Assembly: GCF_000943555.1 (NCBI RefSeq) | Contig: NZ_JTDV01000010.1 | Location: 124,001-188,000, forward strand | DNA: 64,000 nt | DNA from: Neotamlana nanhaiensis | GTDB taxonomy: Bacteria; Bacteroidota; Bacteroidia; Flavobacteriales; Flavobacteriaceae | Direction: 5' to 3' | In this document: piece by piece, positions 13,021 to 33,510 of the stretch | Position numbering within the stretch: the first letter of the stretch is position 1 | How the letters are laid out: each line of letters begins with the position of its first letter | The notes under the pieces: generated by a model | The model's database searches: none | Seen by the model: only the letters and a program-made list of their open reading frames with translations | Told to the model about the DNA's origin: nothing | Translations under genes and position numbers: made by a program

Positions 13021-13111
13021 CAAATGTATTACGATAACTCACTGAAAAAGCTTATTTTAGTTTAAGGGAATATATTGTGTAGACGAATGGTATTTTAGTA
13101 TAGACGAGTGA
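13021..13111 (-). promoter_or_regulatory. Box A: promoter and repeated regulator site upstream of the REC-GT2 gene
   Basis: On the plus strand TAGACGAATGG lies at 13080-13090 and a second copy TAGACGAGTGA at 13101-13111, exactly 21 bp apart (two helical turns). On the minus strand the exact -7 element TACATTTG is the complement of 13021-13028, so the first box begins 59 bp upstream of it. The site lies between divergent genes. For the plus-strand gene at 13166 a -7-like TATCTTTA is at 13136-13143, so the same boxes may also serve that direction. Tandem repeats one or two turns apart are the usual binding pattern of LytTR regulators. Confidence 0.72.
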
Positions 13112-13165
13112 AAAAATTTAGTACAAACCAATTTATATCTTTACTTTTATTAACAAAACAACAAG

Positions 13166-16100
13166 TTGAAACCCGAAAAATCTAACAAATATTTAATAGC
13201 AGCGCTTCTTTTAGGGTTGGCATTTCATGGGAGTTCTATTTTTTTTACTTTAGAAACCACTTACGATGCTTTGATACATTTGTTTTTTGCCGATCATTAT
13301 GCGAATAGCTGGTTTGAACCATGGAATTACGAATGGTACACTGGTTTTACCGTACAAAGCTACCCGCCATTGGTGCATCAATCTATTGGTTTACTGTCGT
13401 ATGTTGGCGGTGTAAAATTTGGAATGTTTGCAGTAGCGCTAATTGCAATTATTTTATTTATAACGGGTTCTTACCGCTTTTCTTTACTCATTTCTGGCAA
13501 CCGAACTGTTGCTGGTTACGCCTCGGTTTTAGCTGTATTTTCGTCGTCGTTTGTAGAAACCTTACATATTTTTGGTCAGTTACCTAGTATTGTTGGTGTA
13601 TCGGTTTTAATGCATGCCTTACCCGAAATATATTTATGGATTAAAACGGGAAAAAAATGGTATTTAGCCACCTGTTTATCGCTTATTGCTGTTACTGTAA
13701 CCTCGCATCACGTTACCCCTATTTTTGGTATGGTATTTTTTATATTCCCATTAATAGGAATGGTAATTATGGATGTTTCTCGAGAGCAGGTTAACACCAC
13801 TAAAGAAGTAACTTTCAAGATTTTTTTAAACAGCTTTTTTAAACTTTTTAAACGTATTGTTATTTTTGGAGGTTGCTCGCTGGTTTTAATAGTAGGTTGT
13901 ATACTACCTTATTGGATAAACTCGAAAGCCAACCCAATAACTCAAGTTCCTATTCCACACGGTTCGCGCGATAATTTTTTAGAAATAACCTCGTCCGGAC
14001 TCGTATTTTTCCTAATTCCTTGGGGCGTTTTATTAGTGCTTTTACCTTATATTTTTTACAGATATTATAGCAAGCGTTATATTTTTTTTGGTTTATCTAT
14101 TACCATTCTAACTATTTTAGGTACGGGCGGAACGACGCCAATTCCAATTAAAGTTTTAGGCGAAACGGCATTTAACATATTAACCTTAGATAGATTTACA
14201 CTTTGGGCTTCTATAATGTCCATTCCTCTTATGGGTGAATTTGCATATCGATTTGTTGAAGGCGATATGAAAGCATTAATTCAAAATAAGTTTGGTGCAA
14301 TATATCATCGTATAATTGGCGGAATTTTAGCTGGTTTATTTGTGTTTATGGTCGTTTTTACTATGAGTTTAAATTATTTTAGACCATCGCAACCGCAAAA
14401 AATTAAAATGCTACCTATTGTTAATTTCTTAAATCAAGACGACCATGACAAGTGGCGATTTTTAACCCTAGGATTTGGCGATCAAATGGCGTGGCTAAGT
14501 GCACAAACAAACGCTATGACTGTTGATGGAAATTACCATTCGGCACGTCGTTTACCCGAATTAACCACGCGCCCCATAGAACGTTTAGAAAACTCTAAAT
14601 TTAAAGGTGTAGCTGGCATTGGCTCGTTACAACAATTTTTAACCACTCCCGAAAAATATAATTTAAAATACATTTTCTCGAACGATAAATTCTACGATCC
14701 TATTCTATTTTTTTGTGGTTGGCAACGTCTGCGACAATTAGAAAATGGTATTATGGTTTGGGAACGACTAAATATTCCTCCAGTTTCATCTATTTTACCC
14801 AAAGAAGATGTCGCTAAATGGCTAAAAATTCACTGGGGCATTATGCCGTTTTTAACTGTTTTAATTGCTTTTATTTTAAATATACAAATGCTATGGGTTA
14901 ACATGCTAAAAACCCGTGTAAAGCCTCCTAAGGCGTTTTTAAAATTTAGTATTACTTACAATAAATTTAATAGAAATGTTTTAAGAATTACACATGTGTG
15001 GTCCCTTTTTCTGGCGATAGTTGTGTGTTACGGCATTTATTTATTTTATTTAAAAAACGATTCACAACGAAGTCCTGAAAATGCAATTATAGCATATTAT
15101 GATGCATTAGATTTTAAAGAATTTGAAAAAGCCCACAGCTTAATAGACCCTAAAAGCAACATACCCATTGCGCAATATATGTTAGAAATTTCGGTTACAG
15201 ACGGCTTATTAAGCAGTTATGCTAAAATGGATGCCATAAAAGCCGAAGTAATAATGCATAACGATAGTACAGCCACAGCTACGGTATTTACAAACTGGAT
15301 TACCCCTTTGGAAAAAATTGCTAAAACCGACTATAAATCGCTTACTAAAATAAAAGGAAAATGGTATTTATTACCCGATGATCTTGATAACGATTTACCT
15401 CCAGACCAACTTTACTCAAACAACGTTACTAAATATTACAACCAAGGTCGCCGCCGTATTACCACCGAACAAACACACCACGAGGATATTTTAAAACAAC
15501 CCGTTTTAGAGGTAATTTCTGCAAAACTTGTAAAATACAATGGTAGTTATGCTATAATTGGCGAAGTACAAAATATTGACAATGTACCAGCCGATATAAT
15601 TTTAAAAGGTACACTTTACAACAATAACAATAAACAACTAGCAACCTATAATGCAAAATACCATGTAAAGCATAAACTTATGCCTAAGGAAACTAGTAGT
15701 TTCAGGATTAATTTTGAAGGCATCGCATGGTCTAAAACACAAGATTCTATTCCAGATACTTTTAACCCCGATGAATTTACTCCCGTAGCATTCGAGGAAC
15801 AACCCACCAAATTCAATTTACAAGCAGCTGGAAACGTAGCCGGATCTGATTTATACAAAAGTGTTGTACTAAGCGACCTAAGTATTAACCAAAACAGTAT
15901 AAGCGGCAATTTATTTAATAGTGGCATTCAAGAAATTACTATTCCTCAATTACTTATAACGTATTACGATGAAAATAAATCGATGCTTTGGGTGGACCAC
16001 TTATTTATAAAAGAAGGTGTTAGGCAAGAGCGCAAACAAGATTTTAATTATCCTATTTTAAATGAAGGTGCTGTAGAAATAATTAATTCTAGCATGAAAA

Positions 16101-16258
16101 ACATTTTTGTTAATGGTTTACCTAATGAAGATATTTCGAATAAAATTGTTCCTAATCGTATTTTAAATCATGTAAATAGCGAGCTTCAACCTATAAATCA
16201 CCCTGATTTTAGTTTTATAAAAATTGAAATCAACACCTATATTGCTAGTCCATTTTAA
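13166..16258 (+). CDS. Large polytopic membrane protein, PTPS-related/GT-C-like, with extracytoplasmic C-terminal region
   Basis: A 1030-residue protein. The first about 390 residues hold many hydrophobic segments with a loop after the first one containing YDALIH and a later YPPL motif, the pattern of 6-pyruvoyl-tetrahydropterin synthase-related membrane proteins and of GT-C lipid-sugar-dependent glycosyltransferases (acidic residue in the first loop). Further hydrophobic segments lie near 555-575 and 630-650. Residues about 660-1030 look extracytoplasmic, starting with an NTF2-like helix-sheet unit (ENAIIAYYDALDFKEFEKAHSLI) and continuing with beta-sandwich-like parts. The start is TTG at 13166; no ATG is near. 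It overlaps nothing and abuts the next gene (stop TAA, then ATG). It probably builds or modifies a surface glycan; substrate unknown. Confidence 0.72.
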   Translation: MKPEKSNKYLIAALLLGLAFHGSSIFFTLETTYDALIHLFFADHYANSWFEPWNYEWYTGFTVQSYPPLVHQSIGLLSYVGGVKFGMFAVALIAIILFITGSYRFSLLISGNRTVAGYASVLAVFSSSFVETLHIFGQLPSIVGVSVLMHALPEIYLWIKTGKKWYLATCLSLIAVTVTSHHVTPIFGMVFFIFPLIGMVIMDVSREQVNTTKEVTFKIFLNSFFKLFKRIVIFGGCSLVLIVGCILPYWINSKANPITQVPIPHGSRDNFLEITSSGLVFFLIPWGVLLVLLPYIFYRYYSKRYIFFGLSITILTILGTGGTTPIPIKVLGETAFNILTLDRFTLWASIMSIPLMGEFAYRFVEGDMKALIQNKFGAIYHRIIGGILAGLFVFMVVFTMSLNYFRPSQPQKIKMLPIVNFLNQDDHDKWRFLTLGFGDQMAWLSAQTNAMTVDGNYHSARRLPELTTRPIERLENSKFKGVAGIGSLQQFLTTPEKYNLKYIFSNDKFYDPILFFCGWQRLRQLENGIMVWERLNIPPVSSILPKEDVAKWLKIHWGIMPFLTVLIAFILNIQMLWVNMLKTRVKPPKAFLKFSITYNKFNRNVLRITHVWSLFLAIVVCYGIYLFYLKNDSQRSPENAIIAYYDALDFKEFEKAHSLIDPKSNIPIAQYMLEISVTDGLLSSYAKMDAIKAEVIMHNDSTATATVFTNWITPLEKIAKTDYKSLTKIKGKWYLLPDDLDNDLPPDQLYSNNVTKYYNQGRRRITTEQTHHEDILKQPVLEVISAKLVKYNGSYAIIGEVQNIDNVPADIILKGTLYNNNNKQLATYNAKYHVKHKLMPKETSSFRINFEGIAWSKTQDSIPDTFNPDEFTPVAFEEQPTKFNLQAAGNVAGSDLYKSVVLSDLSINQNSISGNLFNSGIQEITIPQLLITYYDENKSMLWVDHLFIKEGVRQERKQDFNYPILNEGAVEIINSSMKNIFVNGLPNEDISNKIVPNRILNHVNSELQPINHPDFSFIKIEINTYIASPF

Positions 16259-17464
16259 ATGAAATTAAAATTAATATACATATTACTTTTAAGCTTGGTT
16301 TCAGTTATTTTTTCTGAAGCTCAGCAAAATTCATCTATAAAATTATTAACTAACACCGCATCAATACCTGTTGGCGAACCTATCGTTTTAAAATTTTCAA
16401 GCAGTACTAATTTAAAACCCCTTTTATATTGCTCAAATAGTTATGGTAGCACCGTTTTAGCATCAAAGCTAAATAACAACATTTTAGAATTTACTATCCC
16501 AACAAACATGACCAATAAAATTGGAGCTATAAACTGGAAAATACTTGGTACACCCGAAAATATTTCAGGCCATTTAACCATTGTTCCAAAACCCCAAGTA
16601 GCATCAATGGAAACCTACATTGGGCCGCCAAGTATTGAAGCCGGCGGTACAGATTATAGTATGCTTGTTGTAATTCCTACCGATAGTTTAGACAACCCTG
16701 TACCAACCAATACTTTAGTAAACGTAAAACATCAATTTATAAATATTGAAGAAACTAATGCCGTTTATACCAAAAACCTAATAGCTTACCGTAATATTTA
16801 CGCACATAAAAAAGATGGACGCATTTTGGTGTCTTCTGAAAGTTTAGGAACAAATTCAAAAGAATTCACGGTAAATGCTATGCCTGCAATTCCATCAAAT
16901 TTTACCATTATGGTAAATCGGCCACATAATTACGCCGATGGAAACCAAATAACCACGTGCACGACTTCTGTAATAAAAGATGCACATAACAATGTGGTAA
17001 GTGATGGTACTTTTGTTAACTTTTTTATTACGAATAATAAAGGTTACGTTTTAAAGTCATCGGGGTTAACCATTAACGGCATTGCTACTGCTAAAATTAT
17101 TCATCCAGATTATGGCGACACTTGGCGCATAAAAGCCTATGTTGAAGGTATGGCCGAAAGCAACTCTATTTTGGTAAGCTACCAACAAGTTATTCAAGAT
17201 TTTGAAGTTGCTTTTAAAAATAAAAACCGCAATCTAACCATTGGACCTTTACAAAGTTTTATGAAACAGATGATACCCGATGGCATGCAGGTAAAACTTC
17301 AAATTCATCAAAACAACAAACGCATTGAAACCTTTATAAAAACTTCTTTTAATGGCTATGTAACCTTTAATTTAAAACCCGAAATTTTTAAAAACGGCAC
17401 ATATGATATAACCGTTGAAACTGCTGGAATTACAAAAGAATTTAAAACCTTAACGTTATGGTAA
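16259..17464 (+). CDS. Secreted protein with bacterial Ig-like (Big_1-type) domain
   Basis: A 401-residue exported protein with a signal peptide (about residues 1-21, cleavage before QQNSS). The rest is beta-rich. Residues about 225-310 fit the Big_1/invasin Ig-like pattern: YADGNQITTC, SVIKDAHNNVVSDGTFVNF, then GIATAKI. It begins directly at the stop of the preceding membrane protein and overlaps the following glycosidase gene by 7 bases, so the three are one transcript. A periplasmic or surface structural role in the glycan system is inferred from context only. Confidence 0.72.
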   Translation: MKLKLIYILLLSLVSVIFSEAQQNSSIKLLTNTASIPVGEPIVLKFSSSTNLKPLLYCSNSYGSTVLASKLNNNILEFTIPTNMTNKIGAINWKILGTPENISGHLTIVPKPQVASMETYIGPPSIEAGGTDYSMLVVIPTDSLDNPVPTNTLVNVKHQFINIEETNAVYTKNLIAYRNIYAHKKDGRILVSSESLGTNSKEFTVNAMPAIPSNFTIMVNRPHNYADGNQITTCTTSVIKDAHNNVVSDGTFVNFFITNNKGYVLKSSGLTINGIATAKIIHPDYGDTWRIKAYVEGMAESNSILVSYQQVIQDFEVAFKNKNRNLTIGPLQSFMKQMIPDGMQVKLQIHQNNKRIETFIKTSFNGYVTFNLKPEIFKNGTYDITVETAGITKEFKTLTLW

Positions 17465-18975
17465 GTTTAAACAAAACTATTATGCGAACCATACTTATTG
17501 CATCGTATATTATGCTTATAGCCCTTTTAACTTATGGTTTAAGTGCTATTTTTAGCTATTTAAATACAGGAGCCGACCGCAGTAAAATGCTCCATACAGA
17601 AATTGCAAAGGTGGAGCAGTATTTACCAAAAATTATTTGGCAACCATTACGTAACGAAGGTCGCCCCATGGATAATGAAAACTTAAATACCTTACAAAAC
17701 GATTACCTCGATGCATGGTACGTTAAGCAAATTGCTTACAAAACCAATAAAATAGCTGGCATTAAAGATTACTATACCGAAAGTGCACGCGAAAATTTGT
17801 ATCGCTTTATTGAGCTTAACAAAAAAAACAACATTTCGATTGAAGCAACAACGCTTAACCATAATCCTAATTTAGATTTTTTTAGTGAAGATGGCCAACT
17901 TGCCGTAATTACCGATAAGGATGTAACTGAATACAAACGCATATTTAAAAACGATAGTCTTTTACACGAAACCAATGAAACTTCGACTTACAAAATTGTA
18001 TTTTTACTTGAAGATGGCTTTTGGCGTATAAGGCATATGGTAAAAGAACAAACACAAGAAACAAAACAAACCTCTGCAACTATAAGCACCAATAGTTTAA
18101 ACATTAAAGGTATAAATTACTATCCGCAAGCCACACCATGGGATATGTTTGGCGACCAGTTTTCGACCGACACTTTAGCGCAAGACTTTAAAATTATTAA
18201 AGATGCTGGATTAAATTCTATTAGAATTTTTGTGCAATACGACGATTTTGGTGCGGCAAAAGTAAATCCTTTAAAACTTAAAAAACTATTACAAACACTG
18301 GATATTGCAAAAGAGCATAACTTAAAAGTGGTTTTAACCTTGTTTGATTTTTATGGCGATTATTCGATGATGAATTGGACACTTAACCAACGCCATGCCG
18401 AACAAATAATTAGCGCAGTAAAAAACCATGACGCTATATTGGCTTACGATATAAAAAACGAACCAAATTTAGATTTTGAATCTAGAGGTAAACAAAATGT
18501 AATAGCTTGGTTAGAAAAAATGATTGATTTAGTAAAAACAATGGATAAAAAACACCCGGTTACCATAGGATGGTCCAACACCCAAAGTGCCACAATTTTA
18601 TTGAGTAAAGTTGATTTTGTTTCGTTTCATTATTACGAAGATTTAAAGCAATTAAACGAGGCGATAACATCCTTAAAAAAGCAAATAAAAAACAAAGCTA
18701 TTGTTATGCAGGAATTTGGATTATCGTCGTATAACGGGTTTTGGAAACCCTTTGGAAGCACCGAAGAAGACCAAGCAAATTATCATAAAATGGCACAAAA
18801 CATAATTGCTAAAAATGAGTTACAATTTATGTCTTGGACCTTATACGACTTTGCTAAAATACCAAAGGAAGTCGTTGGTCGACTTCCATGGCGAAAACGA
18901 GTTCAAGGGCATTTTGGCTTTATTAACCAAAACCGAGAGACTAAACCCGCCTTTCAATATATTTCTAAAGAATAA
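17458..18975 (+). CDS. Membrane-anchored GH5-like (clan A) glycoside hydrolase
   Basis: A 505-residue protein with an N-terminal transmembrane anchor (about residues 9-31), a middle region of about 150 residues without a clear family, and a TIM-barrel glycosidase from about residue 217. The two clan A catalytic glutamates are visible: the acid/base E335 in DIKNEPN and the nucleophile E419 in MQEFGLSS, with HYY between them. The domain resembles GH5 cellulase/mannanase-type enzymes. Polysaccharide secretion loci often carry such a hydrolase to trim or release polymer, and that is the likely role here. Its end overlaps the convergent GT4 gene by 11 bases. Confidence 0.85.
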   Translation: MVSLNKTIMRTILIASYIMLIALLTYGLSAIFSYLNTGADRSKMLHTEIAKVEQYLPKIIWQPLRNEGRPMDNENLNTLQNDYLDAWYVKQIAYKTNKIAGIKDYYTESARENLYRFIELNKKNNISIEATTLNHNPNLDFFSEDGQLAVITDKDVTEYKRIFKNDSLLHETNETSTYKIVFLLEDGFWRIRHMVKEQTQETKQTSATISTNSLNIKGINYYPQATPWDMFGDQFSTDTLAQDFKIIKDAGLNSIRIFVQYDDFGAAKVNPLKLKKLLQTLDIAKEHNLKVVLTLFDFYGDYSMMNWTLNQRHAEQIISAVKNHDAILAYDIKNEPNLDFESRGKQNVIAWLEKMIDLVKTMDKKHPVTIGWSNTQSATILLSKVDFVSFHYYEDLKQLNEAITSLKKQIKNKAIVMQEFGLSSYNGFWKPFGSTEEDQANYHKMAQNIIAKNELQFMSWTLYDFAKIPKEVVGRLPWRKRVQGHFGFINQNRETKPAFQYISKE

Positions 18976-20182
18976 CTTCGTTTGTAGCTAATTCTTCTCT
19001 ATTATTTCGCTTTGATAGTATACTTTTAAAAGTAGCCACATACATTTGAGCTATTTTAGACATGGGGTATGCCGTAGCTGCTTTATAATTGGCTTTTCCA
19101 AGCTTAACTCGGTATTCCTCATTGGTTACAATGGCTTCAATAGCATTAGCTAAACTAGTTACCGAGGTTGGCTCGAAAAACTCACCGCGATAACCTTCAT
19201 CTTTTATTAAAAGTGCTAAATCTCCTAAATCGGGCATTACAACCGCTTTCCCATAACTACCCGCTTGATGTAAAACTCCAGAACTTCCAGTAGTTGAAGT
19301 ATATGGAAATACCACCACAGCACTATCGTTAAACAAACCAGGAACCTCATGCTCTTCTACATAACCTGTAAATCGTAGTTGCTTAACATGACAATATTGT
19401 TGTTTTACCCCCTCTAAATATCCTGGAACATTTGGGTTATCGGTTCCTGCAATTACAATTTCAAGATTCAATCCTGTTTTAGTTCGCACTTGCTCTACGG
19501 CTTCAATCATCTGCTCTACCTTTTTATAAGTACCAAACTTACCAAAAGTCATAATTTGCATTGGCGCTTTTGGTATGTTATAATTTGGCTCTTCAGCTAT
19601 CTCAAACGTACCATGAGGTATTAATTTCACGTTTTTAGCGTGATATTTATCCTGTAAAATATCAACATACTTTTGCATAGTTAGTGCAACGGTATCGGCT
19701 TGAAGTATTAAACGTGTTAAACTAGAACCAATAAAACCATATATTTTTTGCATAAGCTTACTATTTGTAAAACCTGCACTGCCTAAATCTACCTCTTCTA
19801 AAATATTATGAAGCAAAACTATACTAGGAATACGCTTTAATTTACAAACAAGTGGCAACATTAAACCTAAAGCGGCAGCTACTTTTTTATCGCCAAATTT
19901 CATAAACTGTAAATTAAACAATACCGCATCGGGTTTCGTATTGTTAATAGCCTTAGTTACACTAAAAATATTTTTATAACTATTAAAACTCCAACATTCT
20001 TTAACAGTAATTTTACAACCTGCTTCGGTAAAGTTAAGATCCTTATTGCCTTCTGTTTTATCGGTTAGTAATATAAGTTCTGTAATATCTTCCTGTTGCC
20101 TAAATTGTTTTACAAGATGGTATGCATACTCATTTAAAGTAACCTTACTTGGCGGATAAGCTGTAACTAGTGCTAATTTCAT
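18965..20182 (-). CDS. GT4 family glycosyltransferase
   Basis: A 405-residue GT-B fold enzyme. The N-terminal Rossmann part starts MKLALVTAYPPS. The C-terminal nucleotide-sugar half shows GKFGTYKKVEQMIEAVE, VIAGTD, the FTGYVEEHEVPGLF pattern and the donor-binding segment TTGSSGVLHQAGSYGKAVVMPD, where the usual EX7E motif is only partly kept. It most likely adds a sugar to a cytoplasmic lipid-linked or polymer acceptor. It is a single-gene unit with its own copy of the locus box upstream, and lies close to a flippase gene. Composition matches its neighbours. Confidence 0.88.
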   Translation of the reverse strand: MKLALVTAYPPSKVTLNEYAYHLVKQFRQQEDITELILLTDKTEGNKDLNFTEAGCKITVKECWSFNSYKNIFSVTKAINNTKPDAVLFNLQFMKFGDKKVAAALGLMLPLVCKLKRIPSIVLLHNILEEVDLGSAGFTNSKLMQKIYGFIGSSLTRLILQADTVALTMQKYVDILQDKYHAKNVKLIPHGTFEIAEEPNYNIPKAPMQIMTFGKFGTYKKVEQMIEAVEQVRTKTGLNLEIVIAGTDNPNVPGYLEGVKQQYCHVKQLRFTGYVEEHEVPGLFNDSAVVVFPYTSTTGSSGVLHQAGSYGKAVVMPDLGDLALLIKDEGYRGEFFEPTSVTSLANAIEAIVTNEEYRVKLGKANYKAATAYPMSKIAQMYVATFKSILSKRNNREELATNEVIL

Positions 20183-20208
20183 GATATAGATTTTTTAGGA
20201 TTATGGTA

Positions 20209-20299
20209 CAAATTTGAGGATTTACCTTACTTTAATAAGTAATTTTAGATAGAACGCTATTTTAGTGTAGACGAATGGTAATTTGCTTTAGACTAGACT
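20209..20299 (-). promoter_or_regulatory. Box B: promoter and repeated regulator site upstream of the GT4 gene
   Basis: TAGACGAATGG is at 20268-20278 on the plus strand, 59 bp upstream of the minus-strand -7-like CAAATTTG (20209-20216; one mismatch to TAnnTTTG). A partial copy TAGACTAGACT lies exactly 21 bp further at 20289-20299, and a weaker TAGATAGAACG 22 bp before it at 20246-20256. The gene starts at 20182. Confidence 0.7.
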
Positions 20300-21536: not shown

Positions 21537-21576
21537 GATAGATTTGGAGTTTATCAATGTTGGGGCTATTAATAAT

Positions 21577-21849
21577 TTATAGGTTACTTATGTTTTGATT
21601 ATAAAATTCGCTAATTTGCTTACCTTCAACCGATAAGACTTTTTTCTTCTCAAAAGCAAATAAGTTAAGTTCTATAAAGGCTTTTATTCCTGCCAGACTT
21701 ATAGACTTTACCTTATCAACGTTCAAAATAATTTCACTATAACGATTAAAAAGTGCTATAATCTCGTTTTTAAATTGCGAAACGTTAGAGGCGTCTATTT
21801 CGCCTTCTATCACAAAAATCTTATTTTTAGATATAATTTCCATAGTCAT
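21577..21849 (-). CDS. STAS domain protein (anti-sigma antagonist-like)
   Basis: A small single-domain protein of about 90 residues. The STAS pattern is visible: IFVIEGEIDASNVSQFKNEI, then NVDKVKSISLAGIKAFIEL, where the Ser region corresponds to the phosphorylation loop of SpoIIAA-type proteins. The open frame reaches a TTG at 21891, but that lies inside the predicted -7 element; ATGs at the complements of 21861, 21849 and 21843 are better starts and I use 21849. It is the first gene of a two-gene unit with the flippase. No anti-sigma kinase or RsbU-type phosphatase is in the window, so its partner is unknown. Confidence 0.75.
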   Translation of the reverse strand: MTMEIISKNKIFVIEGEIDASNVSQFKNEIIALFNRYSEIILNVDKVKSISLAGIKAFIELNLFAFEKKKVLSVEGKQISEFYNQNISNL

Positions 21850-21888
21850 TTTGCGTAACATTAATTTATTATTCGTTTGATATTGATG

Positions 21889-24666: not shown

Positions 24667-24686
24667 AGTAAATAATCACTAAAAAA

Positions 24687-27113
24687 TCACTCCTTCATGA
24701 ACGTACCAGAGTAAACTCTTTTATTGCTATCAATCAATTTAAATTTATATAAACCTCTCGATAAATTCGGGGCGCTATATGTGATTGCTTTACCGTGTGT
24801 TAAAATATGTTGTGTATCTACAGTTCTACCTAGCATATCGTAAACTTTTATATCAACAAATTGAGCATTGCTTTTAAGCTGTACTGTTGTTTTTGTGGTA
24901 AACGGATTTGGGTAAGTATTTAAACCTTCAGCTTCTTCAACTTGAGTATTAGACAAACTTGCCTCGCTTGAAAATGCTAACTCGCTTATTGACAACGTAA
25001 ATGGTTGCAGTGTTGAATAATTCCCTAAAACCGAAAACACTATGGTTTTTATATTAGTTATATCTGCTGAGTTACCATTTGCATCCTTAAAATCTGAAAA
25101 ATTAATGACGTGCATAGTTTCGGTACTATTAGCTGGTAATGTGTAACGCAATCTATTATTCCAATCGGTTAATTCTTCAGGCATTAATACAATTTCTACT
25201 GGTTGCGAATTAAAAATTTCGAATTGAACACTTGTAAACTCTGAAACATTTAAGGTTTGATCGCCTGGTAAAATATGTCGGAATAAATTAACATTATCTC
25301 TAACACTTCCAGAAACCATTGGTTGTCTGTTAACCTCATAAACATTATCGCTATAATTTGAAGCTTCATTATCTACTAAAAAAGTATTTATATTGGCGGC
25401 TTCATCTAGATAATCTAACCCCCAAGGACCATCAGCTAAATACAAGGCATCTTTTTGGGCAGATGTATTCGTAGCTAACGAGAAGCCTATATCAAAAAGA
25501 ACACCTGTATCAACACTTATTACTTCGTTATAAGCACCACTTAATGCTATATTTTGTTGGATATTAGAATGATTAGACACTTCTGTTTCGGCTACGTTTC
25601 CGTTAAATATAAGGCTGGTAGTTGCGGTTTTATTAATAATATTTAAATGAATTTTTCCGTTTGAATAGTAGCCAGATTTAACAAAAACCGACGGTATTTT
25701 ATCTTCAACTAAAGTACTTGTTAAGGCCTTTTCGCTTGTAAACGTATCAATAATATGATTTGCTATTGCAAACACCTGCGAGAACGAACTACCCCATATT
25801 TGAAAATTATTATAATCGCCTTCTGGGTATTGATCAATATTCCAAAAACTAAATAACTTATTGCTTTCTGCCTCTAACTTTACCGAAAAACTTAAGGTGT
25901 ATTCTGTTTCTCCTGTTGCTCGTTTAATTTCTGAATTAATAACGTTATGGCCTCGTACTGTTACGGTTCTAATATCTTCTAAACTCGAACTATTTAATCG
26001 GTCGCAAATTGCTTTAGAGTGGTCGTAAACACCCCCAACTGTTTTAGTAGCTAAAACCGCAGAAACCCTATTTGAATCTTGATATAAATCTACCGAAAAA
26101 ACTTCTTGAGCATTAGTAATACCTAACAAATCATCGGGACTAGAAACATATGCCGTTTCATTGCCATACATTCCTGTTTCTGGCAAATATTTTTCTAAAG
26201 AGTTTGTTCCAGAATTTTTGCCAGATTTCCCTTTAGCATAAGTTTTTTGTAAGATTTTTTTATCGGCAACCTTTCCCATAATTTTACGCTTAAAGTTACG
26301 CTTTGCAATTTTACTCGCTAGGTTACCATTACTTTCTAAACCGCCTAAATTAGCCGAAGTTATTGTGGTAGACTCTGGGACAACTTCTGGTAAATTTGTT
26401 GTTTTTATAGCGTCGTAAGGGTTTGCAGTTACATAAAAAATAGCATCATTAAAATCGTTATCGCATGAACTATAATCGCGACGAATATCTTCAAAACCTA
26501 AAATAACACGGTCGTTTTCAGGATCGGCTAATAATACATTATGGTGTCTTAAATGCTCGTCGGCTTCAGGGTTAAATTCTGTATTTGAATACAACTGCCA
26601 ATGTCCCCAAGTAACCAAAGACCCGTTCCACGCATTAGCTAAAAGTACCCAACCAATTACAGTATCTGGTTGAAATGTACCTATTTTAACCTTATTACCA
26701 GGTTGTAGTCCGCCACCGCTTCCAACGGCAGAAACATTAGGAAAAATTATGGTTATATCTTGGTCGGTTGGCATTACCGGATTGGGATCGTTAATATTGT
26801 AAGTATAAAACCCTAAAACATTGCGGTAGCCGGCACCTTCATCAACAAAAGTAACCCAAACATCGGCAGGTTTTTCAATTACAATATCGGTATCGTAACC
26901 CGAAGAAATATAATGTGGATTGTAGTCTGGAACCGGATAGCCTTCTGGAAGCGAATTACTTACCATTTGCATGGTAGCATCGTCAATGACATCCGAAGTC
27001 GGTTCTAAATACAGTGGCGTTCCATCATAAGTGTAGTCTCCTAAATAGTTAAAGTTTTGAGCAAAACTAAATACCGAGACAATTAAAATTAAAAGTTGTA
27101 GTATTTTTTTCAT
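24687..27113 (-). CDS. LruC/DUF4114-type surface protein with type IX secretion sorting tail
   Basis: An 808-residue exported protein with a signal peptide ending at SFAQ (residue 19). Residues about 170-235 contain the DUF4114 signature GFEDIRRDYSSCDNDFNDAIF, followed by the LruC-type region. The last about 80 residues are a type A sorting domain of the type IX secretion system: LNTYPNPF, VYDMLGRTV, LSRGLYKFKL and a basic end. It should therefore be exported by the GldKLMN machinery encoded at 44766-49472 and attached to the cell surface. Its promoter has an exact -7 (TAAGTTTG), a poor -33 and the locus box, which suggests activation by the local regulator. A matrix or adhesin role is inferred. 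Confidence 0.85.
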   Translation of the reverse strand: MKKILQLLILIVSVFSFAQNFNYLGDYTYDGTPLYLEPTSDVIDDATMQMVSNSLPEGYPVPDYNPHYISSGYDTDIVIEKPADVWVTFVDEGAGYRNVLGFYTYNINDPNPVMPTDQDITIIFPNVSAVGSGGGLQPGNKVKIGTFQPDTVIGWVLLANAWNGSLVTWGHWQLYSNTEFNPEADEHLRHHNVLLADPENDRVILGFEDIRRDYSSCDNDFNDAIFYVTANPYDAIKTTNLPEVVPESTTITSANLGGLESNGNLASKIAKRNFKRKIMGKVADKKILQKTYAKGKSGKNSGTNSLEKYLPETGMYGNETAYVSSPDDLLGITNAQEVFSVDLYQDSNRVSAVLATKTVGGVYDHSKAICDRLNSSSLEDIRTVTVRGHNVINSEIKRATGETEYTLSFSVKLEAESNKLFSFWNIDQYPEGDYNNFQIWGSSFSQVFAIANHIIDTFTSEKALTSTLVEDKIPSVFVKSGYYSNGKIHLNIINKTATTSLIFNGNVAETEVSNHSNIQQNIALSGAYNEVISVDTGVLFDIGFSLATNTSAQKDALYLADGPWGLDYLDEAANINTFLVDNEASNYSDNVYEVNRQPMVSGSVRDNVNLFRHILPGDQTLNVSEFTSVQFEIFNSQPVEIVLMPEELTDWNNRLRYTLPANSTETMHVINFSDFKDANGNSADITNIKTIVFSVLGNYSTLQPFTLSISELAFSSEASLSNTQVEEAEGLNTYPNPFTTKTTVQLKSNAQFVDIKVYDMLGRTVDTQHILTHGKAITYSAPNLSRGLYKFKLIDSNKRVYSGTFMKE

Positions 27114-27133
27114 GATATATAGATTTGTTGAAA

Positions 27134-27203
27134 CAAACTTATATCAATACATACAGTATTTTTTTAATTTTCGACTGACAAAACATTAAGTGTAGACGAA
27201 TGG
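27134..27203 (-). promoter_or_regulatory. Box D: promoter and repeated regulator site upstream of the surface protein gene
   Basis: TAGACGAATGG is at 27193-27203; its start is 59 bp upstream of the exact minus-strand -7 element TAAGTTTG (complement of 27134-27141). A weak partner TCGACTGACAA lies 22 bp closer to the gene at 27171-27181. No -33 TTG is present at the normal distance, as expected for an activator-dependent promoter. Confidence 0.72.
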
Positions 27204-27223
27204 TAAAAACAACGGGATGAGCG

Positions 27224-27940
27224 TTATAGCAAATTTAAACGTTTCATTAACTCAGGGCGGTTAGATCGGCTTACAGGTATTACATCCTTTTTAATTAAAA
27301 CACTATTATCCTCTATATCAACAATTTTTTTAATGTTAATAATAAAAGACCTATGCACTTTTAAAAACACATCGTTTGGTAGTTTTTCTTCAATTTTTTT
27401 TAAAGTTGAATGTACCGTGTAGTTTTTATCTTCGGTTTTTAGCTGAATATAATCGCCTCTAGCTTCAACCATATAAATACTTGGAATATCAATTTTTATT
27501 AAACGTCTATCTATATTTATATACAAATCATTATCCGATGATGCTTCTACCTCTTCGGTTGAAGTAACGGTTTGGGTTGAAGTAGGACTTGAAAGTGATT
27601 GAGCCTTTTGAATACCTTTTAAAAAGCGTTCTTGAGAAATGGGTTTTACCAAATAATCAACAATACAATTGTACTCAAACGCTTGAATTGCAAATTTAGG
27701 ATCGGAGGTTGTTAAGATTATTTTAGGAGGTTTTTTTATGGTATCAATAAAATCGAACCCCGTAAAATCTGGCATATGTATATCTAAAAATATTAAATCG
27801 ACTTGATTTTGATTTAAATATTTTATTGCCTGAATTGCATTAGGAAACTCTTCTAAAACGTTTAGAGACGAGACGGTTGAACATAATTGACCAATGATTG
27901 CGCGAGCAGTAGCTTCATCATCAATAATAATACAATTCAT
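27224..27940 (-). CDS. LytTR-type response regulator
   Basis: A 238-residue LytR/AlgR-type transcription factor. The receiver domain (residues 1-118) has acidic residues DDE at 7-9, the phospho-acceptor D53 in FLDIHMP and Lys 99 before Pro. After a Ser/Thr-rich linker, residues about 135-238 form the LytTR DNA-binding domain (IYMVEARGDYIQLKTEDKNYTVHSTLKKIEEKL, FLKVHRSFIINIKKI). It is the last gene of the seven-gene NO-sensor/phosphorelay operon, 9 bases after the Hpt gene. It is the best candidate for the protein that binds boxes A-E, including one in front of its own operon. Confidence 0.94.
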   Translation of the reverse strand: MNCIIIDDEATARAIIGQLCSTVSSLNVLEEFPNAIQAIKYLNQNQVDLIFLDIHMPDFTGFDFIDTIKKPPKIILTTSDPKFAIQAFEYNCIVDYLVKPISQERFLKGIQKAQSLSSPTSTQTVTSTEEVEASSDNDLYINIDRRLIKIDIPSIYMVEARGDYIQLKTEDKNYTVHSTLKKIEEKLPNDVFLKVHRSFIINIKKIVDIEDNSVLIKKDVIPVSRSNRPELMKRLNLL

Positions 27941-27949
27941 AAAGGTTAG

Positions 27950-28267
27950 TTATAGTTGATCTAAATACTTTGTTATATTTTGTAAAATAGCTTCAAACTC
28001 GTTTTTAAGCTCGGTTTTGCCTTCAATTAAGTTTTCTTCGTAAGCCACAGCTACAGTATAACTTTTTTCTAGCCCTAAAATACTAATTTTATGCTTAAGT
28101 TTGTGTACATTTTCGGCGGTTTCTTTATGTTTTTTCGCGGCCAAGTTGTTATAATACACTTTCTTTTCTTCTGGAAACTCTATTTTAATGATATCAATTA
28201 GCTTTTGTTCGAAGACTTTATCACCTCCAGACATGTTTTCTATATACGACAAATTTGGTTGTTCCAT
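27950..28267 (-). CDS. Histidine phosphotransfer (Hpt) domain protein
   Basis: A 105-residue helical single-domain protein with the Hpt pattern: VHKLKHKISILGLEKSY, in which H55 is the expected phosphorylated His (family pattern AHxLKG..LG). A free Hpt beside two kinases without receiver domains and three separate receiver proteins points to a branched phosphorelay. It starts 4 bases after the upstream kinase and ends 9 bases before the LytTR regulator. The Gly after the Lys in the family pattern is His here, a small deviation. Confidence 0.8.
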   Translation of the reverse strand: MEQPNLSYIENMSGGDKVFEQKLIDIIKIEFPEEKKVYYNNLAAKKHKETAENVHKLKHKISILGLEKSYTVAVAYEENLIEGKTELKNEFEAILQNITKYLDQL

Positions 28268-28271
28268 AGTG

Positions 28272-29321
28272 TTATTTTTTTATGGTAAAATAAAATGTTG
28301 TACCCTTTCCTACCTCAGATTTTAACCAAATCTCTCCGCCATACATGGTTACAATTTTTTTGGCAATAGATAGTCCCATACCTATAGTACCAACTTTAAT
28401 TTCGAGTTTTTGAAAGGTTTTAAATATTTTATCGAAATACTTCTCTTCGATACCTTTACCATTATCTTTTACAAAAAATTCCCAATGGCTTTCATGTTCT
28501 GTATATCCTATTTCAACTTTACCTTGTTTTTTATCATTAAAGTTAATGGCGTTGGTAATTAGGTTTCTAAAAACTTGCTGTAATCTATATTTCTCGCCCT
28601 TAATTAAAGGCAATTGTTGCAATTTAACAACCGATATATTATCTGGTATTTCAAGTCTACCTAAAACTTCGTTTACAGCATAATCTACATCTACATTATA
28701 AATACCTTCTTGAGCTCTACCAATGGTTGAATATTCTAAAATACCATTAATTAAAAGCTCCATTTTTTCAACATGATTTCTAATTTGATAAATAGTTTGT
28801 TTATCGCTTTCGTTAAACACATCTTTATTATCATCATACAGCCATAAAGTTAAGGTATCGATACTTCGCAATGGCGATTTTAAATCGTGCGATATCATGT
28901 GGGCATAATCGCTTAATTCTTGGTTTTGATACGATAATTCTTCGAGCAATTTTTCGCTTTTCTGATTAATTTCAACAATTTTTTGCGCTTGGTCTTCAAT
29001 AAAATTAGCGAGGTTTTCAACATCAAAACTGCCAACATCTTTATTTTTTTGGGTTGAAGATTGGTCTATATTTAATGTTTCAACAATGTTTTTTAGCTTA
29101 TTTATTACCTTTTTTTGTGCCTCGGCCTCTTCCTGAAGTTTTTGATTTGCAGTAAACAATTCTTCCGAACTTATTTTCATAGCGCGTTGTACCATAACAA
29201 ATTGCTCGTCGAAATTATTGTATGAATTATTAACGGCTTCCATAAAAGCCTTAACTTCCTTATTTTCTAAAAGGTCGTCGTTTAAATATTTACGTATTTG
29301 TCTTTTTAATAACGAATTCAT
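28272..29321 (-). CDS. Histidine kinase (cytoplasmic, coiled-coil N-terminus)
   Basis: A 349-residue soluble kinase. Residues 1-95 are helical and include the motif RAMKISSEELFTANQKL, also common in kinases linked to FIST, H-NOX or phytochrome sensors. HisKA has the phospho-acceptor H145 in MISHDLKSPLRS. HATPase_c shows the N box NLITNAINFND, DNGKGIEE and GMGLSIAKKI. There is no sensor domain, so input must come from a partner; the FIST protein gene overlaps its start by one base (TAATG), which is the arrangement expected for a NosP-type sensor and its kinase. Confidence 0.92.
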   Translation of the reverse strand: MNSLLKRQIRKYLNDDLLENKEVKAFMEAVNNSYNNFDEQFVMVQRAMKISSEELFTANQKLQEEAEAQKKVINKLKNIVETLNIDQSSTQKNKDVGSFDVENLANFIEDQAQKIVEINQKSEKLLEELSYQNQELSDYAHMISHDLKSPLRSIDTLTLWLYDDNKDVFNESDKQTIYQIRNHVEKMELLINGILEYSTIGRAQEGIYNVDVDYAVNEVLGRLEIPDNISVVKLQQLPLIKGEKYRLQQVFRNLITNAINFNDKKQGKVEIGYTEHESHWEFFVKDNGKGIEEKYFDKIFKTFQKLEIKVGTIGMGLSIAKKIVTMYGGEIWLKSEVGKGTTFYFTIKK

Positions 29322-30454
29322 TATTCACTTAATAATGTTACAGTCATGGTTTGATTGTGTAACTGACAATTATTTTCGCCGTTGAAGGGCGCTATTTCAC
29401 CATAGGAATAAAACCCAGAAACCACTGTGTTTTCACCAACTACTGATATTACTTCTTCAACTTCTTCTTCTACACGTTGATCTAAAACCAGTTTTCTACC
29501 AATACAACTTACTAAAAAAGCTATTTCGGGGTCTTTTTTTCGGTTTAAAATGGCTTGTCTTGCGGCTTGTTCGGATGCATTTGCAATATTATCTACATTC
29601 GTCATCATAAGTTGTACCTTAGAATTTTCGGGAATATCGCCTGCAAAAATCATAGAATGGTCGTCTTCGTTTATGTTAAGAATTGTTCTTACAATAGAGT
29701 GGTCTTCATTTTCAATTTTCACATTCATAGGATACAGTAAAGCTGCTCCTGGTAAGTCTTTCGATTTTTCTCCTAAATATTTTTTATACAAATCTAAAGC
29801 TGGTAAATTATCGAGTTCGTAAAGCACATTACCTTTCGATTTTGTTACAATACGCTCTGGCCCAAAGGGTGTCCATCCGCCATAAATTGAAAATGAGACT
29901 TCTAAACTATCGCCATAAAACCCAACAGCTACAATTTCGCCTTCCTTAGGGTTTTCGTTATATGATGCTAACGTTTTTTCGAACCTTGCAGCATCGCCAC
30001 ATAAGCCACCCGTAATTAAAACATTGTTGTTTACGGCAGCGTTCATCCCTTTTGTTAATTGGCTACCGTTAACAAAACTACCTTCGCTTACTATAAAAAC
30101 AAATTTTAAATTTTCTTTATTAAACTGATTTATGATATCGTTACCTGTTTTATAACTATCTTCTGTTAATGCCGATACATTACTAGTTTTTATTTCGAAT
30201 GTACTTTTTTCAAACTCCATTGCGGTAATGGTAATTGAATCATCATCAACCGATTGTGATGTTATATCGCCACTGGTAGATGCAAAAATTATATGTGCAT
30301 TTGGAAATAATGCACTTACTTCGCTATAAATATTATCTTGTTCTAATAAAAAACGATTACCAAAAACCAAAACTAACGGATTGTTTAAGCTCTGGTTTTC
30401 ACTTAAATATTCCCAGTCGCTATTTTTTTGTTTTTTTAGTTGAACTATTTTCAT
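29321..30454 (-). CDS. FIST domain sensor protein (NosP-like)
   Basis: A 377-residue cytoplasmic protein made of FIST_N and FIST_C domains. Landmarks are ITGGLCGDAARFEKT, VAVGFYGDSLEV, the SCIGRKLVLDQR segment and the C-terminal GFYSYGEIAPFNG and LHNQTMTV. FIST proteins sense small ligands; a subgroup called NosP binds heme and nitric oxide and controls co-encoded histidine kinases. Here the gene is coupled to a kinase and lies one gene away from an H-NOX protein, supporting the NosP reading, but the heme ligand cannot be assigned from the sequence. The gap to the upstream kinase gene is 4 bases. Confidence 0.88.
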   Translation of the reverse strand: MKIVQLKKQKNSDWEYLSENQSLNNPLVLVFGNRFLLEQDNIYSEVSALFPNAHIIFASTSGDITSQSVDDDSITITAMEFEKSTFEIKTSNVSALTEDSYKTGNDIINQFNKENLKFVFIVSEGSFVNGSQLTKGMNAAVNNNVLITGGLCGDAARFEKTLASYNENPKEGEIVAVGFYGDSLEVSFSIYGGWTPFGPERIVTKSKGNVLYELDNLPALDLYKKYLGEKSKDLPGAALLYPMNVKIENEDHSIVRTILNINEDDHSMIFAGDIPENSKVQLMMTNVDNIANASEQAARQAILNRKKDPEIAFLVSCIGRKLVLDQRVEEEVEEVISVVGENTVVSGFYSYGEIAPFNGENNCQLHNQTMTVTLLSE

Positions 30455-30458
30455 GGGT

Positions 30459-32441
30459 TTAAGTTTTTTTTAATGTAAAATAAAAGGTTGTTCCTTTAGT
30501 AGGTTCGCTCTCTAACCAAATTTCGCCTTCATGCATTTCTACTATTTTCTTAACAATAGAAAGCCCTATACCTGTTGAATCTTTTCGTTTATTTAAGGAG
30601 AGAAAAATTTTAAATATTTTATCGTGAAATTTTTTATCGATGCCTATACCGTTATCTTTAACCGAAAACTGATAGAAATCGCCTTTTGCTTGCACATCAA
30701 TCTCTACCAAACCAGCTTCTTTGTCTATAAATTTAATAGCGTTACTCATTAAGTTTTGAAACAGCTGTTGCAGTTTAACTCTGTTACCATTAAGGCTTGG
30801 TAGCGTATTTAACACGGTAACGTTTACATGACTAGGCTTGTGTAAAATTCCTATTAAATCGGTAACTAATGTATGTACATTTACCTCCTCTTTTTCACTA
30901 TCTTCTGAACCTATACTGGAATACTCTAAAACATCGGTTATTAATTGTTCCATTTTTTCGAGTGTGGTTTCAATATGCGCAATGTTTTGTAAGCTAACAG
31001 CATCTAATTTGTCTTTATTATCTTCTTTTAACCAGCTTACTAAGGCATTAATACTGCGTAATGGCGATTTTAAATCGTGCGAAACCACATGAGCGTATTC
31101 GTAAAGTTCGTCGTTACTTTTTTCTAACTTTTTTAATAGATTCTCTTTTTGTAGTTGTAGGCTTTTAATATCGGTTATATCGAAATTTATTCCAATAGAC
31201 CCCACAACTTCGCCTTTTAAATTATAATTTGGCGCTCCACTTACTAACCAATGCCGTAATTCTCCTGCTTTATTTTTTATACGAACTTCGTAAGAATCTG
31301 TTTTTCCTTTTTTACGATTTCTGTTTTGCTCATTTACAATTTCCTTATCTTCATCAGAGGGTAAAAAATCTTTACCTACTTTACCAATTATTTCATCTTC
31401 GGCATAGCCCGTCATGTCGTAAAAGCTTTTATTAGCCATTACAATTCTGTCGTTTACATCAACTTCCAATAAGCCCAAATTCATGTTAGAAATTATACTT
31501 GAATACTTAAACTTTTCAGCTTCTAAGCTTTTTCTATATTGGCGTCTAATGGTAAAATCTTTATACTTCCATAAATGGCCTTTGTAAACACCATCTCTAA
31601 AAATAGGTATATAATCGCGCTCAAAAATACGGTCGTCAATTGTTTCTAAATCTTCATTTAAAACAGGCTTTTTAGAATTAAATGCCGCGGTTATATCGGT
31701 AATAAATTTTTGGGAATCTTTAAAGCTGTGCTTTATTTCTTCTATTACTGGCAGACAATCTTTACCCACTAATTCGTTGGGTTGTTTCTTAACATTAAAA
31801 AACTCACAAAATTTATTATTAACAAGAATTATTTTTCGGTTTTCGTCTTCTAACAATACGCCTTCTTCTAGGTTTTGAATTAACGCTGCTAAACGCTCTT
31901 CAGACTCTATTAATTTTTCTTTTTCGTTTTTTGATTGGGTAATATCTCGAACAATACCGTGTGAAGCAATGGGCACTCCATTATCATAAATAACACTGGC
32001 ATTAATTTGAACTATAATTTTTCGATGATCTTTTGTGGTAATATTAACAACTAAATCGCTTACCGAACCACCTTCTCGATAAACGACATTAAAGGCATTA
32101 AAAACGTCTATATATTGATCTGGACGCACTAAATCCATTAAGTTACAGCTATCCTTTACACTTTTTAAGCCCAAAAGGGTTACTGCTGCGGCATTCATTT
32201 TTATGATATTGCCTTCTACATCGGCCACTACATAGGCATCTACAATATGCTCGAAAACACCTTGTAGTTGCGAATCGGTTTTTGCAAAAGTAGATTCTAA
32301 ACTAGTATAAGCCTCGGCTAATTTTTGATTAGACTCATACAACTCTGCCGATTTTTGTTCTAAAATAGCTTCAGCTTGCTTTCTAGCGGCTTTTTCGCGA
32401 TTTAGAGCACGTTGAAGTATGTCAATTTTATCTTGACTCAT
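30459..32441 (-). CDS. Multi-PAS histidine kinase, H-NOX-associated
   Basis: A 660-residue soluble kinase. Residues 1-60 form a coiled coil (REKAARKQAEAILEQKSAEL) of the kind found in H-NOX- and FIST-linked kinases. Three PAS domains follow (about 62-175, 180-300 and 310-435), then HisKA with phospho-acceptor H455 in VVSHDLKSPLRS and HATPase_c (NLMSNAIKFID, DNGIGIDKKF, GIGLSIVKKI). There is no receiver domain. It starts directly at the H-NOX stop codon with no spacer, so the NO sensor is its probable input. The HisKA core is close to that of the second kinase in the operon, suggesting duplication. Confidence 0.93.
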   Translation of the reverse strand: MSQDKIDILQRALNREKAARKQAEAILEQKSAELYESNQKLAEAYTSLESTFAKTDSQLQGVFEHIVDAYVVADVEGNIIKMNAAAVTLLGLKSVKDSCNLMDLVRPDQYIDVFNAFNVVYREGGSVSDLVVNITTKDHRKIIVQINASVIYDNGVPIASHGIVRDITQSKNEKEKLIESEERLAALIQNLEEGVLLEDENRKIILVNNKFCEFFNVKKQPNELVGKDCLPVIEEIKHSFKDSQKFITDITAAFNSKKPVLNEDLETIDDRIFERDYIPIFRDGVYKGHLWKYKDFTIRRQYRKSLEAEKFKYSSIISNMNLGLLEVDVNDRIVMANKSFYDMTGYAEDEIIGKVGKDFLPSDEDKEIVNEQNRNRKKGKTDSYEVRIKNKAGELRHWLVSGAPNYNLKGEVVGSIGINFDITDIKSLQLQKENLLKKLEKSNDELYEYAHVVSHDLKSPLRSINALVSWLKEDNKDKLDAVSLQNIAHIETTLEKMEQLITDVLEYSSIGSEDSEKEEVNVHTLVTDLIGILHKPSHVNVTVLNTLPSLNGNRVKLQQLFQNLMSNAIKFIDKEAGLVEIDVQAKGDFYQFSVKDNGIGIDKKFHDKIFKIFLSLNKRKDSTGIGLSIVKKIVEMHEGEIWLESEPTKGTTFYFTLKKT

Positions 32442-32981
32442 TTAATTTTTCTTTATAATGAATTTTACTTCGGTAGCTACATCATTTAGCTTTTCAAACT
32501 CTATCGTCGCTGTTTCATTAAAATGCTCGAAAGTTTTATTCATTAACCCTAAACCAAAAGCATGCATTGCTCTACTAGATTTATAAATTAAAACTAATAG
32601 GTTTGGTGTTTTTTCTAAGACTTGAAATGTTGGCAATTCGGCATCGGGATATATTTTTTTTACCTCCACATGAATGTGATTTTCTATTGAAGCCAGCATT
32701 TCAATAGGATCGGAATACATTTGCAATATCCCCGAGTAGCTTCGCTTAATTACACTAAAAAAATGTTCGGCGTAAACTTGCAGTAAATCATCGGTAGAAA
32801 TATTAGTATTTTCACTTAAATTATTTAGTAATTGTAACATTTCTGAAAACTCGTAGGTTCCTACAGAGGTATAAACTCCTTCAGATTTTAGATTAGAATT
32901 GGATATTATACTATCAACCATTTCTAAGCCAAATTTATCTTCGACTAAATCAAGAAACTCTGTAAAAACAATGCCTTTCAT
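32442..32981 (-). CDS. H-NOX heme NO-binding protein
   Basis: A 179-residue single-domain H-NOX (HNOB) protein. It begins MKGIVFTEFLDLVE, the standard N-terminus. H104 in IHVEVKKIYPDAELPTF aligns with the proximal heme ligand of Shewanella H-NOX, and the heme-propionate motif YxSxR is present as YKSSR (residues 133-137). Such proteins bind NO and inhibit or release a partner kinase; that is family knowledge. Its start overlaps the response regulator stop by one base and its stop abuts the PAS kinase start. NO (or possibly oxygen) sensing is expected; no distal-pocket tyrosine assignment is attempted. Confidence 0.93.
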   Translation of the reverse strand: MKGIVFTEFLDLVEDKFGLEMVDSIISNSNLKSEGVYTSVGTYEFSEMLQLLNNLSENTNISTDDLLQVYAEHFFSVIKRSYSGILQMYSDPIEMLASIENHIHVEVKKIYPDAELPTFQVLEKTPNLLVLIYKSSRAMHAFGLGLMNKTFEHFNETATIEFEKLNDVATEVKFIIKKN

Positions 32982-33394
32982 TATATTTGTTTTAGTTCGT
33001 TAATGCTCCAGTACCCTAAAACTCTTTCAATTTTAGAAACATACTCTTCATATTTTAAAGGTTTTATTACATAACCTGCAATACCTATTTTATAGCACTC
33101 TAACAGATCGCGTTGGTTACTCGATGTTGTTAAAATTATGGTTGGAATGTACCTTAAAACATCGTCGTTTTTTAAAATAGTTAAAAACTCAATACCATTT
33201 AATTTTGGCATGTTTAAATCTAATAAAATTATGTCGGGTAATTCACCTTTATTTTGTAAAATATTTAAGGCTTCTTCTCCATTGTTGGCCTCTATAATAT
33301 TATGTTTAAGTTGAAGTGATGAAATGGCTCTATTTAGTTTCATAACTTCAATAACATCATCTTCAATTACTAAAACGTTTAAAACTTTGGACAT
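32981..33394 (-). CDS. Single-domain response regulator (Rcp1/CheY type)
   Basis: A 137-residue stand-alone receiver. Acidic EDD lies at residues 11-13, the phospho-acceptor D59 in LLDLNMPKLNG and Lys 111 before Pro. The length and the ILLDLNMP style match Rcp1-type regulators paired with cytoplasmic kinases. I choose the ATG at 33394; the longer frame from 33451 adds 19 residues and runs over the predicted -7 element. First gene of the operon, so it may act as a phosphate sink or an intermediate in a relay to the Hpt protein. Confidence 0.9.
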   Translation of the reverse strand: MSKVLNVLVIEDDVIEVMKLNRAISSLQLKHNIIEANNGEEALNILQNKGELPDIILLDLNMPKLNGIEFLTILKNDDVLRYIPTIILTTSSNQRDLLECYKIGIAGYVIKPLKYEEYVSKIERVLGYWSINELKQI

Positions 33395-33420
33395 GATACG
33401 CTTTTTTGTGATTTTGAGTA

Positions 33421-33510
33421 TAAAATTATAATTATGCCTCGAAAATTGCATTATAGTTCGTTAACATAAAAATAAGTGTAGACGAATGGTAATTTGAAAC
33501 AGATAAACGG
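33421..33510 (-). promoter_or_regulatory. Box E: promoter and repeated regulator site of the NO-sensor operon
   Basis: TAGACGAATGG at 33479-33489 has a partial direct repeat CAGATAAACGG exactly 21 bp further at 33500-33510. The minus-strand -7-like TAATTTTA is the complement of 33421-33428, 58 bp from the box, 27 bases before the ATG at 33394. This predicts autoregulation by the LytTR protein at the operon's end. Confidence 0.7.

Follow-up and report, generated by a model that had tools for sequence, protein, structure and literature searches.

What reads an 11-bp box that recurs before five separate promoters, always in one orientation and always at nearly the same distance from the −7 element? 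The question is raised by a 64,000-nucleotide stretch of the Neotamlana nanhaiensis genome (contig NZ_JTDV01000010.1, positions 124,001 to 188,000; here, the window). A preliminary description of this stretch proposed that the boxes mark a local regulon of signalling, glycan, and surface genes, and named the LytTR regulator encoded at 27224–27940 as the natural candidate to bind them. With a probability of roughly 0.8, the five promoters share a tandem operator that this LytTR protein binds, and form the activated, autoregulated output of an H-NOX phosphorelay. From the observed motif, spacing, phase, conservation, co-occurrence, gene layout, and domain content, we infer LytTR binding, activation, the direction of phosphate flow, and nitric oxide (NO) as the ligand.

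The box and its distance from the −7 element

Exact copies of the box, TAGACGAATGG, lie on the plus strand of the window at 13080, 20268, 27193, and 33479, and a variant, TAGGTGAATGA, lies at 21948; all five stand upstream of minus-strand genes, at the positions first reported. The four exact copies compare with 0.01 expected, and none of 100 dinucleotide shuffles of the window reached four. Counted from the start of the box to the last base of the −7 element, the distance is 59 bp at four of the minus-strand promoters: P1 (TACATTTG, 13021–13028), P2 (CAAATTTG, 20209–20216), P3 (GATATTTG, 21889–21896), and P4 (TAAGTTTG, 27134–27141). At P5, the −7-like element TAATTTTA (33421–33428, also minus strand) is 58 bp from its box. 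The constant spacing described initially is therefore present at all five promoters, with two amendments: the distance of 58 bp belongs to the box at 33479 rather than to that at 21948, and the P5 element, said to end in TTTG, reads TAATTTTA. At least five of the six TAnnTTTG bases are found at 58–60 bp in five of five promoters, against a shuffled rate of 0.03 per site; the resulting figure of about 3e-8 comes from a post hoc test, computed after the fact. Such phasing is, as the preliminary description argued, hard to get by chance.

The phase recurs in other genomes. The close comparison set comprised 14 relatives with an orthologue of the LytTR gene (53–84% identity), in which 38 of 48 sites have a −7-like element at 58–60 bp (shuffles: mean 1.5, maximum 5) and three further sites have one at 38 bp. 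The wider set comprised the best 80 of 222 H-NOX matches, here called the named loci; four of these are in genomes that trained the half-site scoring matrix (see below), and the other 76, orthologous loci from the same family, are outside training. In these 76, distances to the −7 element peak at 79 (62 cases), 58 (43), 59 (29), and 80 bp (18), over a mean of 3.4 per distance, and the two groups of peaks, 58/59 and 79/80, differ by one step of 21 bp. Sequences from related genomes are non-independent events, so that p-values given here overstate the significance.

In the whole genome of N. nanhaiensis, exact copies of the box occur at ten places, reduced to six distinct ones because the contig containing the window (C2) looks like an exact dimer; four of the six are in the window and the other two are inside long open reading frames (ORFs), as is a one-mismatch copy on contig C10. 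A 14-mer with up to two mismatches gave 26 matches, of which the four sites of the window and the duplicates of these on C2 make up 8, against 5 for a reversed control. No partner half-site was found for the near-exact copies elsewhere in the genome, three of which sit within ORFs, and six single half-sites in five outside loci have no −7-like element at 57–61 bp. Weaker sites were sought in 20 stretches outside the window, 400 kb in total, which yielded one weak pair and no composite (a pair plus a −7 element in phase); the window holds five composites. At this stringency, a regulon that extends beyond the locus is rejected, since the outside copies have no partner or no −7 element.

Contig C2 itself (377,790 bp; the window is C2:124001-188000) appears to be one 188,895-bp sequence present twice, head to tail: each of the four box positions has a counterpart at +188,895, and both pairs of stretches that were compared (6.0 and 3.9 kb) are identical. 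This repeat appears to be an assembly dimer or a circular replicon, and it inflates the genome size.

A direct repeat with a 21-bp period

Judged by its sequence, the box is one half-site (CCAYTCRYCKA, read along transcription) of a direct repeat whose second copy usually lies 21 bp away. The predicted operators are on the plus strand, each upstream of its minus-strand target. At P1 (13080–13111), half-sites 13080–13090 and 13101–13111 are 21 bp apart, the second matching 9 of 11 bases, before the gene for a fusion of a receiver with a GT2 glycosyltransferase (11802–12989). At P2 (20246–20278), the strong half-site 20268–20278 has a weak partner at 22 bp (20246–20256), before a GT4 glycosyltransferase gene (18965–20182). 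At P3 (21927–21958), half-sites 21927–21937 and 21948–21958 are 21 bp apart, before genes for a STAS protein (21577–21891) and a polysaccharide flippase (20298–21557). At P4, the strong half-site 27193–27203 has weak partners at 27214 and, by eye, 27171, before the gene for a DUF4114 protein with a type IX secretion system (T9SS) sorting domain (24687–27113). At P5 (33479–33510), half-sites 33479–33489 and 33500–33510 are 21 bp apart, the second matching 7 of 11 bases, before the sensor operon (33451–27224). Second repeats 21 or 22 bp away had been noted for several copies, and are those at 13101, 21927, 33500, and 20246. Beyond that observation, the site can be described as an array whose half-sites fall into registers spaced by 21 bp.

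In most of the 14 relatives, orthologous genes also have box-like sites upstream of them; none was found in one relative (G026). With the window consensus only, these relatives yield 16 pairs at −21 and 9 at +21, where the mean per spacing is 1.0; on the opposite strand, no spacing reaches 4 pairs. A matrix trained on the sites of 15 genomes (these relatives and N. nanhaiensis itself) gave 44 against 2 pairs at 21 bp, a count that is not independent because of the training; the tests with the window consensus and with the 76 loci carry the weight. In the latter, 128 of 140 coding-strand half-site pairs are at ±21, and the other strand has 3 pairs in all.

Across the 15 genomes, the P1 gene is present in 10, with a half-site in 8 and both elements (half-site and −7) in 6; the corresponding numbers are 10, 7, and 5 for P2; 12, 12, and 11 for P3; 15, 11, and 10 for P4; and 15, 14, and 11 for P5. 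The aligned promoters run in the order half-site, A-rich spacer, weaker proximal half-site, −7 element. No conserved −33 was found in the alignment, whose sites were chosen partly by their −7.

The LytTR regulator as candidate binder

The protein encoded at 27224–27940 (minus strand) consists of a receiver domain followed by a LytTR domain, both above their Pfam cut-offs (78.7 against 22.6 bits and 66.5 against 30.2 bits). Its residue D53 is invariant in 14 aligned sequences, and among the locus proteins scanned only this one contains a recognised DNA-binding domain. Its best NCBIfam model is BtsR, although it falls below the NCBI cut-offs for both BtsR and LytR.

Inheritance of the box follows this gene. 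The survey covered 149 genomes of the family, with an orthologue called at E 1e-55 or better, and used a 14-base pattern, STGTMGAYGAATGG, composed after the relatives had been inspected. An orthologue is present in 61 genomes and the exact pattern in 60; the pattern has 114 matches, against 7 for a reversed control (counted by eye). With N. nanhaiensis itself set aside, 44 of the remaining 148 genomes have both box and LytTR, 16 LytTR only, 15 the box only, and 73 neither (p 5e-12). Of the 89 box matches found in LytTR genomes, 71 are at most 30 kb from that gene, where about 1.5 would be expected for a 3.6-Mb genome, and 70 of these 71 are on the strand opposite LytTR, the predicted orientation; the other 18 are further off or on other contigs. 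Moreover, five of nine sampled genomes with LytTR and no H-NOX gene keep an exact 14-base box within 30 kb of LytTR, and so the box follows LytTR rather than H-NOX.

LytTR genes are numerous in these genomes, and that of N. nanhaiensis has 28 LytTR-matching places, which leaves room for another paralogue to bind the box or to share it with the local protein. This is improbable: it is the local orthologue, the one tested, with which the box co-occurs and co-locates, even in the five genomes that lack H-NOX. A fixed distance to the −7 element would also suit an alternative sigma factor promoter element or an upstream polymerase-binding element. This explanation is less probable still, because the −7 elements resemble the sigma-A consensus, and because the box repeats directly at 21 bp and follows one LytTR gene. 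The regulator at 27224–27940, as initially proposed, is thus the best candidate to bind the box. The proposal of a local regulon likewise gains from the 21-bp repeat, the fixed phase, and the absence of a composite from the 400 kb sampled elsewhere.

The H-NOX sensor operon

What signal might such a regulator convey? The LytTR gene closes an operon that has one of the boxes at its head, a feature that had gone unnoticed. Six minus-strand genes precede it, overlapping or separated by no more than 9 bp: a stand-alone receiver domain (32981–33451); an H-NOX (HNOB) haem sensor, assigned by family (32442–32981); a PAS histidine kinase (30459–32441); a FIST protein (29321–30454); a second histidine kinase (28272–29321); and a 105-residue Hpt-like phosphotransfer protein (27950–28267).

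The H-NOX assignment is founded on an HNOB domain (137 bits, residues 2–161) and a structure match to 6bdd (E 1e-85), which an excerpt of PMC7356049 gives as the H-NOX structure from Kordia algicida; family membership suggests that the protein binds haem and NO. FIST domains are matched over residues 27–354 of the FIST protein, and no PDB match was found for it at 0.001. The Hpt-like protein scores below the Pfam Hpt cut-off (17.8 against 24.6 bits). Its predicted model is helical, with a predicted local distance difference test score (pLDDT) of 95, and its best PDB matches are Hpt domains (template modelling score 0.70–0.77), but with a best E of 0.05; H55 and H59 are invariant in 13 sequences.

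Among the 148 genomes, LytTR is present in 60, H-NOX in 54, and both in 51; in 49 of the 51, the two genes share a strand and H-NOX is no more than 8 kb upstream, and in the other two it is on another contig. Each of receiver, Hpt, and LytTR was detected at 79 of the 80 named loci, and FIST at 55; the number of kinases per locus is not readable because the two kinase queries cross-match. FIST is present in 6 of the 14 relatives, where the two kinase queries match separate places; in 7 other relatives with a kinase match, both queries fall on one gene. FIST and the second kinase therefore seem to come together. Of the 78 named loci with enough upstream DNA, 73 contain a half-site there and 54 a pair; a −7-like element falls into one of the three registers at 55. 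Kordia algicida has the operon too, with a variant pair 21 bp apart (by eye, at the one locus read); the nearest named genomes are Tamlana.

In genome G067, an H-NOX gene (C9:21093-21629) contains an in-frame TAG, and no LytTR orthologue was found at the threshold used. A box stands at C9:22140, about 0.5 kb upstream of H-NOX. This looks like a decaying copy of the system. Two LytTR orthologues stand in tandem in G042 (C2:381139-382687) and in G149 (C1:1376298-1378238).

Proposed mechanism

In the mechanism favoured here, the LytTR regulator (27224–27940) would bind the half-sites of the tandem operator, which keep to fixed registers, some 38, 59, and 80 bp before the last −7 base. Because half-sites repeat every 21 bp, copies of LytTR would sit on one face of the DNA. 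The sigma-A −7 element of Flavobacterium psychrophilum spans −12 to −5 according to an excerpt of PMC9723704; with the last −7 base taken as −5 from that promoter map, the central half-site would span roughly −64 to −74, and the proximal half-site roughly −43 to −53, a position from which an activator can contact RNA polymerase. The lack of a conserved −33 in the aligned promoters fits dependence on an activator. Since the operon that has the regulator gene as its final member itself begins with this operator, the loop is probably one of positive autoregulation. As the operon encodes H-NOX, a NosP-like FIST protein, two histidine kinases, Hpt, and a receiver, the phosphorylation of LytTR is most likely governed by NO or another haem ligand; NO as the signal is taken from family knowledge of H-NOX. 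The signal would pass from the haem sensor through the kinase/Hpt relay to LytTR, and the output would be the glycosyltransferase/flippase polysaccharide cluster, the STAS protein, and the T9SS-exported protein.

LytTR on the same operator could instead act mainly as a repressor, freed by signalling. The sign is not readable from sequence, and in Shewanella the H-NOX system includes HnoC, a repressor with a feedback loop (excerpt of PMC8738867). However, half-sites upstream of the −7 element and of any −33 position, in strict helical phase and with no conserved −33, have the usual layout of an activator, which makes repression unlikely. Alternatively, NO might act directly on cysteines of LytTR, leaving H-NOX to serve another output: S-nitrosylation of AgrA is reported, and similar behaviour suggested for other LytTR proteins, in PMC6769237, and across 14 orthologues C20 never varies and C3 hardly does. 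Both cysteines, though, are in the receiver domain, and the operon layout favours a phosphorelay, so that direct action on cysteines has little probability.

Several results count against activation by LytTR through a tandem operator. Partner half-sites are uneven: none of the 7 genomes that contain the P2 half-site has a convincing partner for it, and that of P4 in the window is weak. Even with a script that favoured sites with a −7, the half-site is present in only 52 of 62 promoter–genome cases and both elements in 43; moreover, 10 of the 48 sites in relatives lack a −7-like match at 58–60 bp. Five of the 78 named loci, three of them Kordia, have no half-site above threshold upstream of the operon. 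An exact 14-base match is absent from 16 of 60 LytTR genomes and present in 15 of 88 genomes that lack LytTR (17 matches). LytTR occurs without H-NOX in nine genomes and H-NOX without LytTR in three, so that the sensor is not obligatory. The FIST protein has FIST domains beside kinases like NosP, the FIST-family NO sensor, but scores 74.2 bits against the cut-off of 450 of the NCBIfam NosP model (NF041558), and is therefore called NosP-like only. Finally, the box with up to three mismatches is not enriched in the window (127 found, 121 expected), for which reason the analysis relied instead on exact copies, on pairs, and on the −7 phase. This lack of enrichment would suit chance repeats or a spreading repeat element; yet spacing, phase, and orientation are conserved across the family, which already contradicts chance and makes such an origin barely credible.

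A wider version of the proposed circuit may be right or wrong with even odds. It envisages a self-amplifying gas-sensing circuit throughout marine Flavobacteriaceae, with a three-register operator ruler, its own pair at each promoter, and NO coupled to polysaccharide production; the receiver–glycosyltransferase would possibly be switched by the relay without transcription.

Relation to known systems

LytTR regulators such as AgrA, VirR, and PlnC/PlnD use imperfect direct repeats that lie upstream of promoters with a separation of about 12 bp, according to an excerpt of PMC4064291. The regulator studied here shares with them a receiver plus LytTR domain and, by prediction, a direct-repeat operator: two direct repeats with about 10–12 bp between them are found here, with a 21-bp period. 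Unlike those systems, its registers are 38, 59, and 80 bp from a −7 element of the Bacteroidota TAnnTTTG type. AlgR, a LytTR protein of Pseudomonas aeruginosa, binds the core CCGTTCGTC (same excerpt), one base different from CCATTCGTC here; the two regulators share the LytTR family and exopolysaccharide control, which is predicted for the one studied here. AlgR sites in that excerpt are not necessarily spaced direct repeats, and some are hundreds of bp away, whereas repeat and phase are fixed here. With its core one base off and a different layout, the box was not classed as an AlgR-type site.

The operon resembles Shewanella HnoC and Vibrio fischeri HahK–SypF–syp, as presented in the excerpt of PMC8738867, in having H-NOX beside kinases and, by prediction, phosphotransfer, a transcriptional output to exopolysaccharide, and feedback. 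It differs from them in that the predicted transcriptional output is LytTR with a local operator, and that Hpt and receiver are separate genes of the operon. No report of such an operator or of a link from H-NOX to LytTR was found in the literature searched, subscription journals being mostly outside it.

Operator, regulator, promoter phase, and sensor operon can be read together from the sequence and traced through a bacterial family. H-NOX signalling in flavobacteria thereby becomes testable with five ready promoters, and the relation between LytTR spacing and promoter geometry gains a natural example.

The polysaccharide cluster and neighbouring genes

In the region covered for each of the 14 relatives, genes for receiver–GT2 (or GT2), GT4, and flippase are all present in 9. 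In two relatives (G008 and G013), only the transferase part of the receiver–GT2 protein aligns. In a third with altered gene order (G004), a box with a −7 element at 60 bp stands upstream of a flippase–GT4–receiver–GT2 stretch.

Because the P3 −7 element coincides in part with the listed TTG start of the STAS ORF (21577–21891), translation probably begins some 30 bases inside that ORF. A 1030-residue membrane protein (13166–16258, also with a listed TTG start) is divergent from the P1 gene and possibly shares its operator; it has no Pfam match above cut-off and an AlphaFold pLDDT of 53, and is conserved in 9 of the 14 relatives. Within the polysaccharide cluster, positions 17458–18975 encode a 505-residue protein with matches to glycoside-hydrolase TIM barrels.

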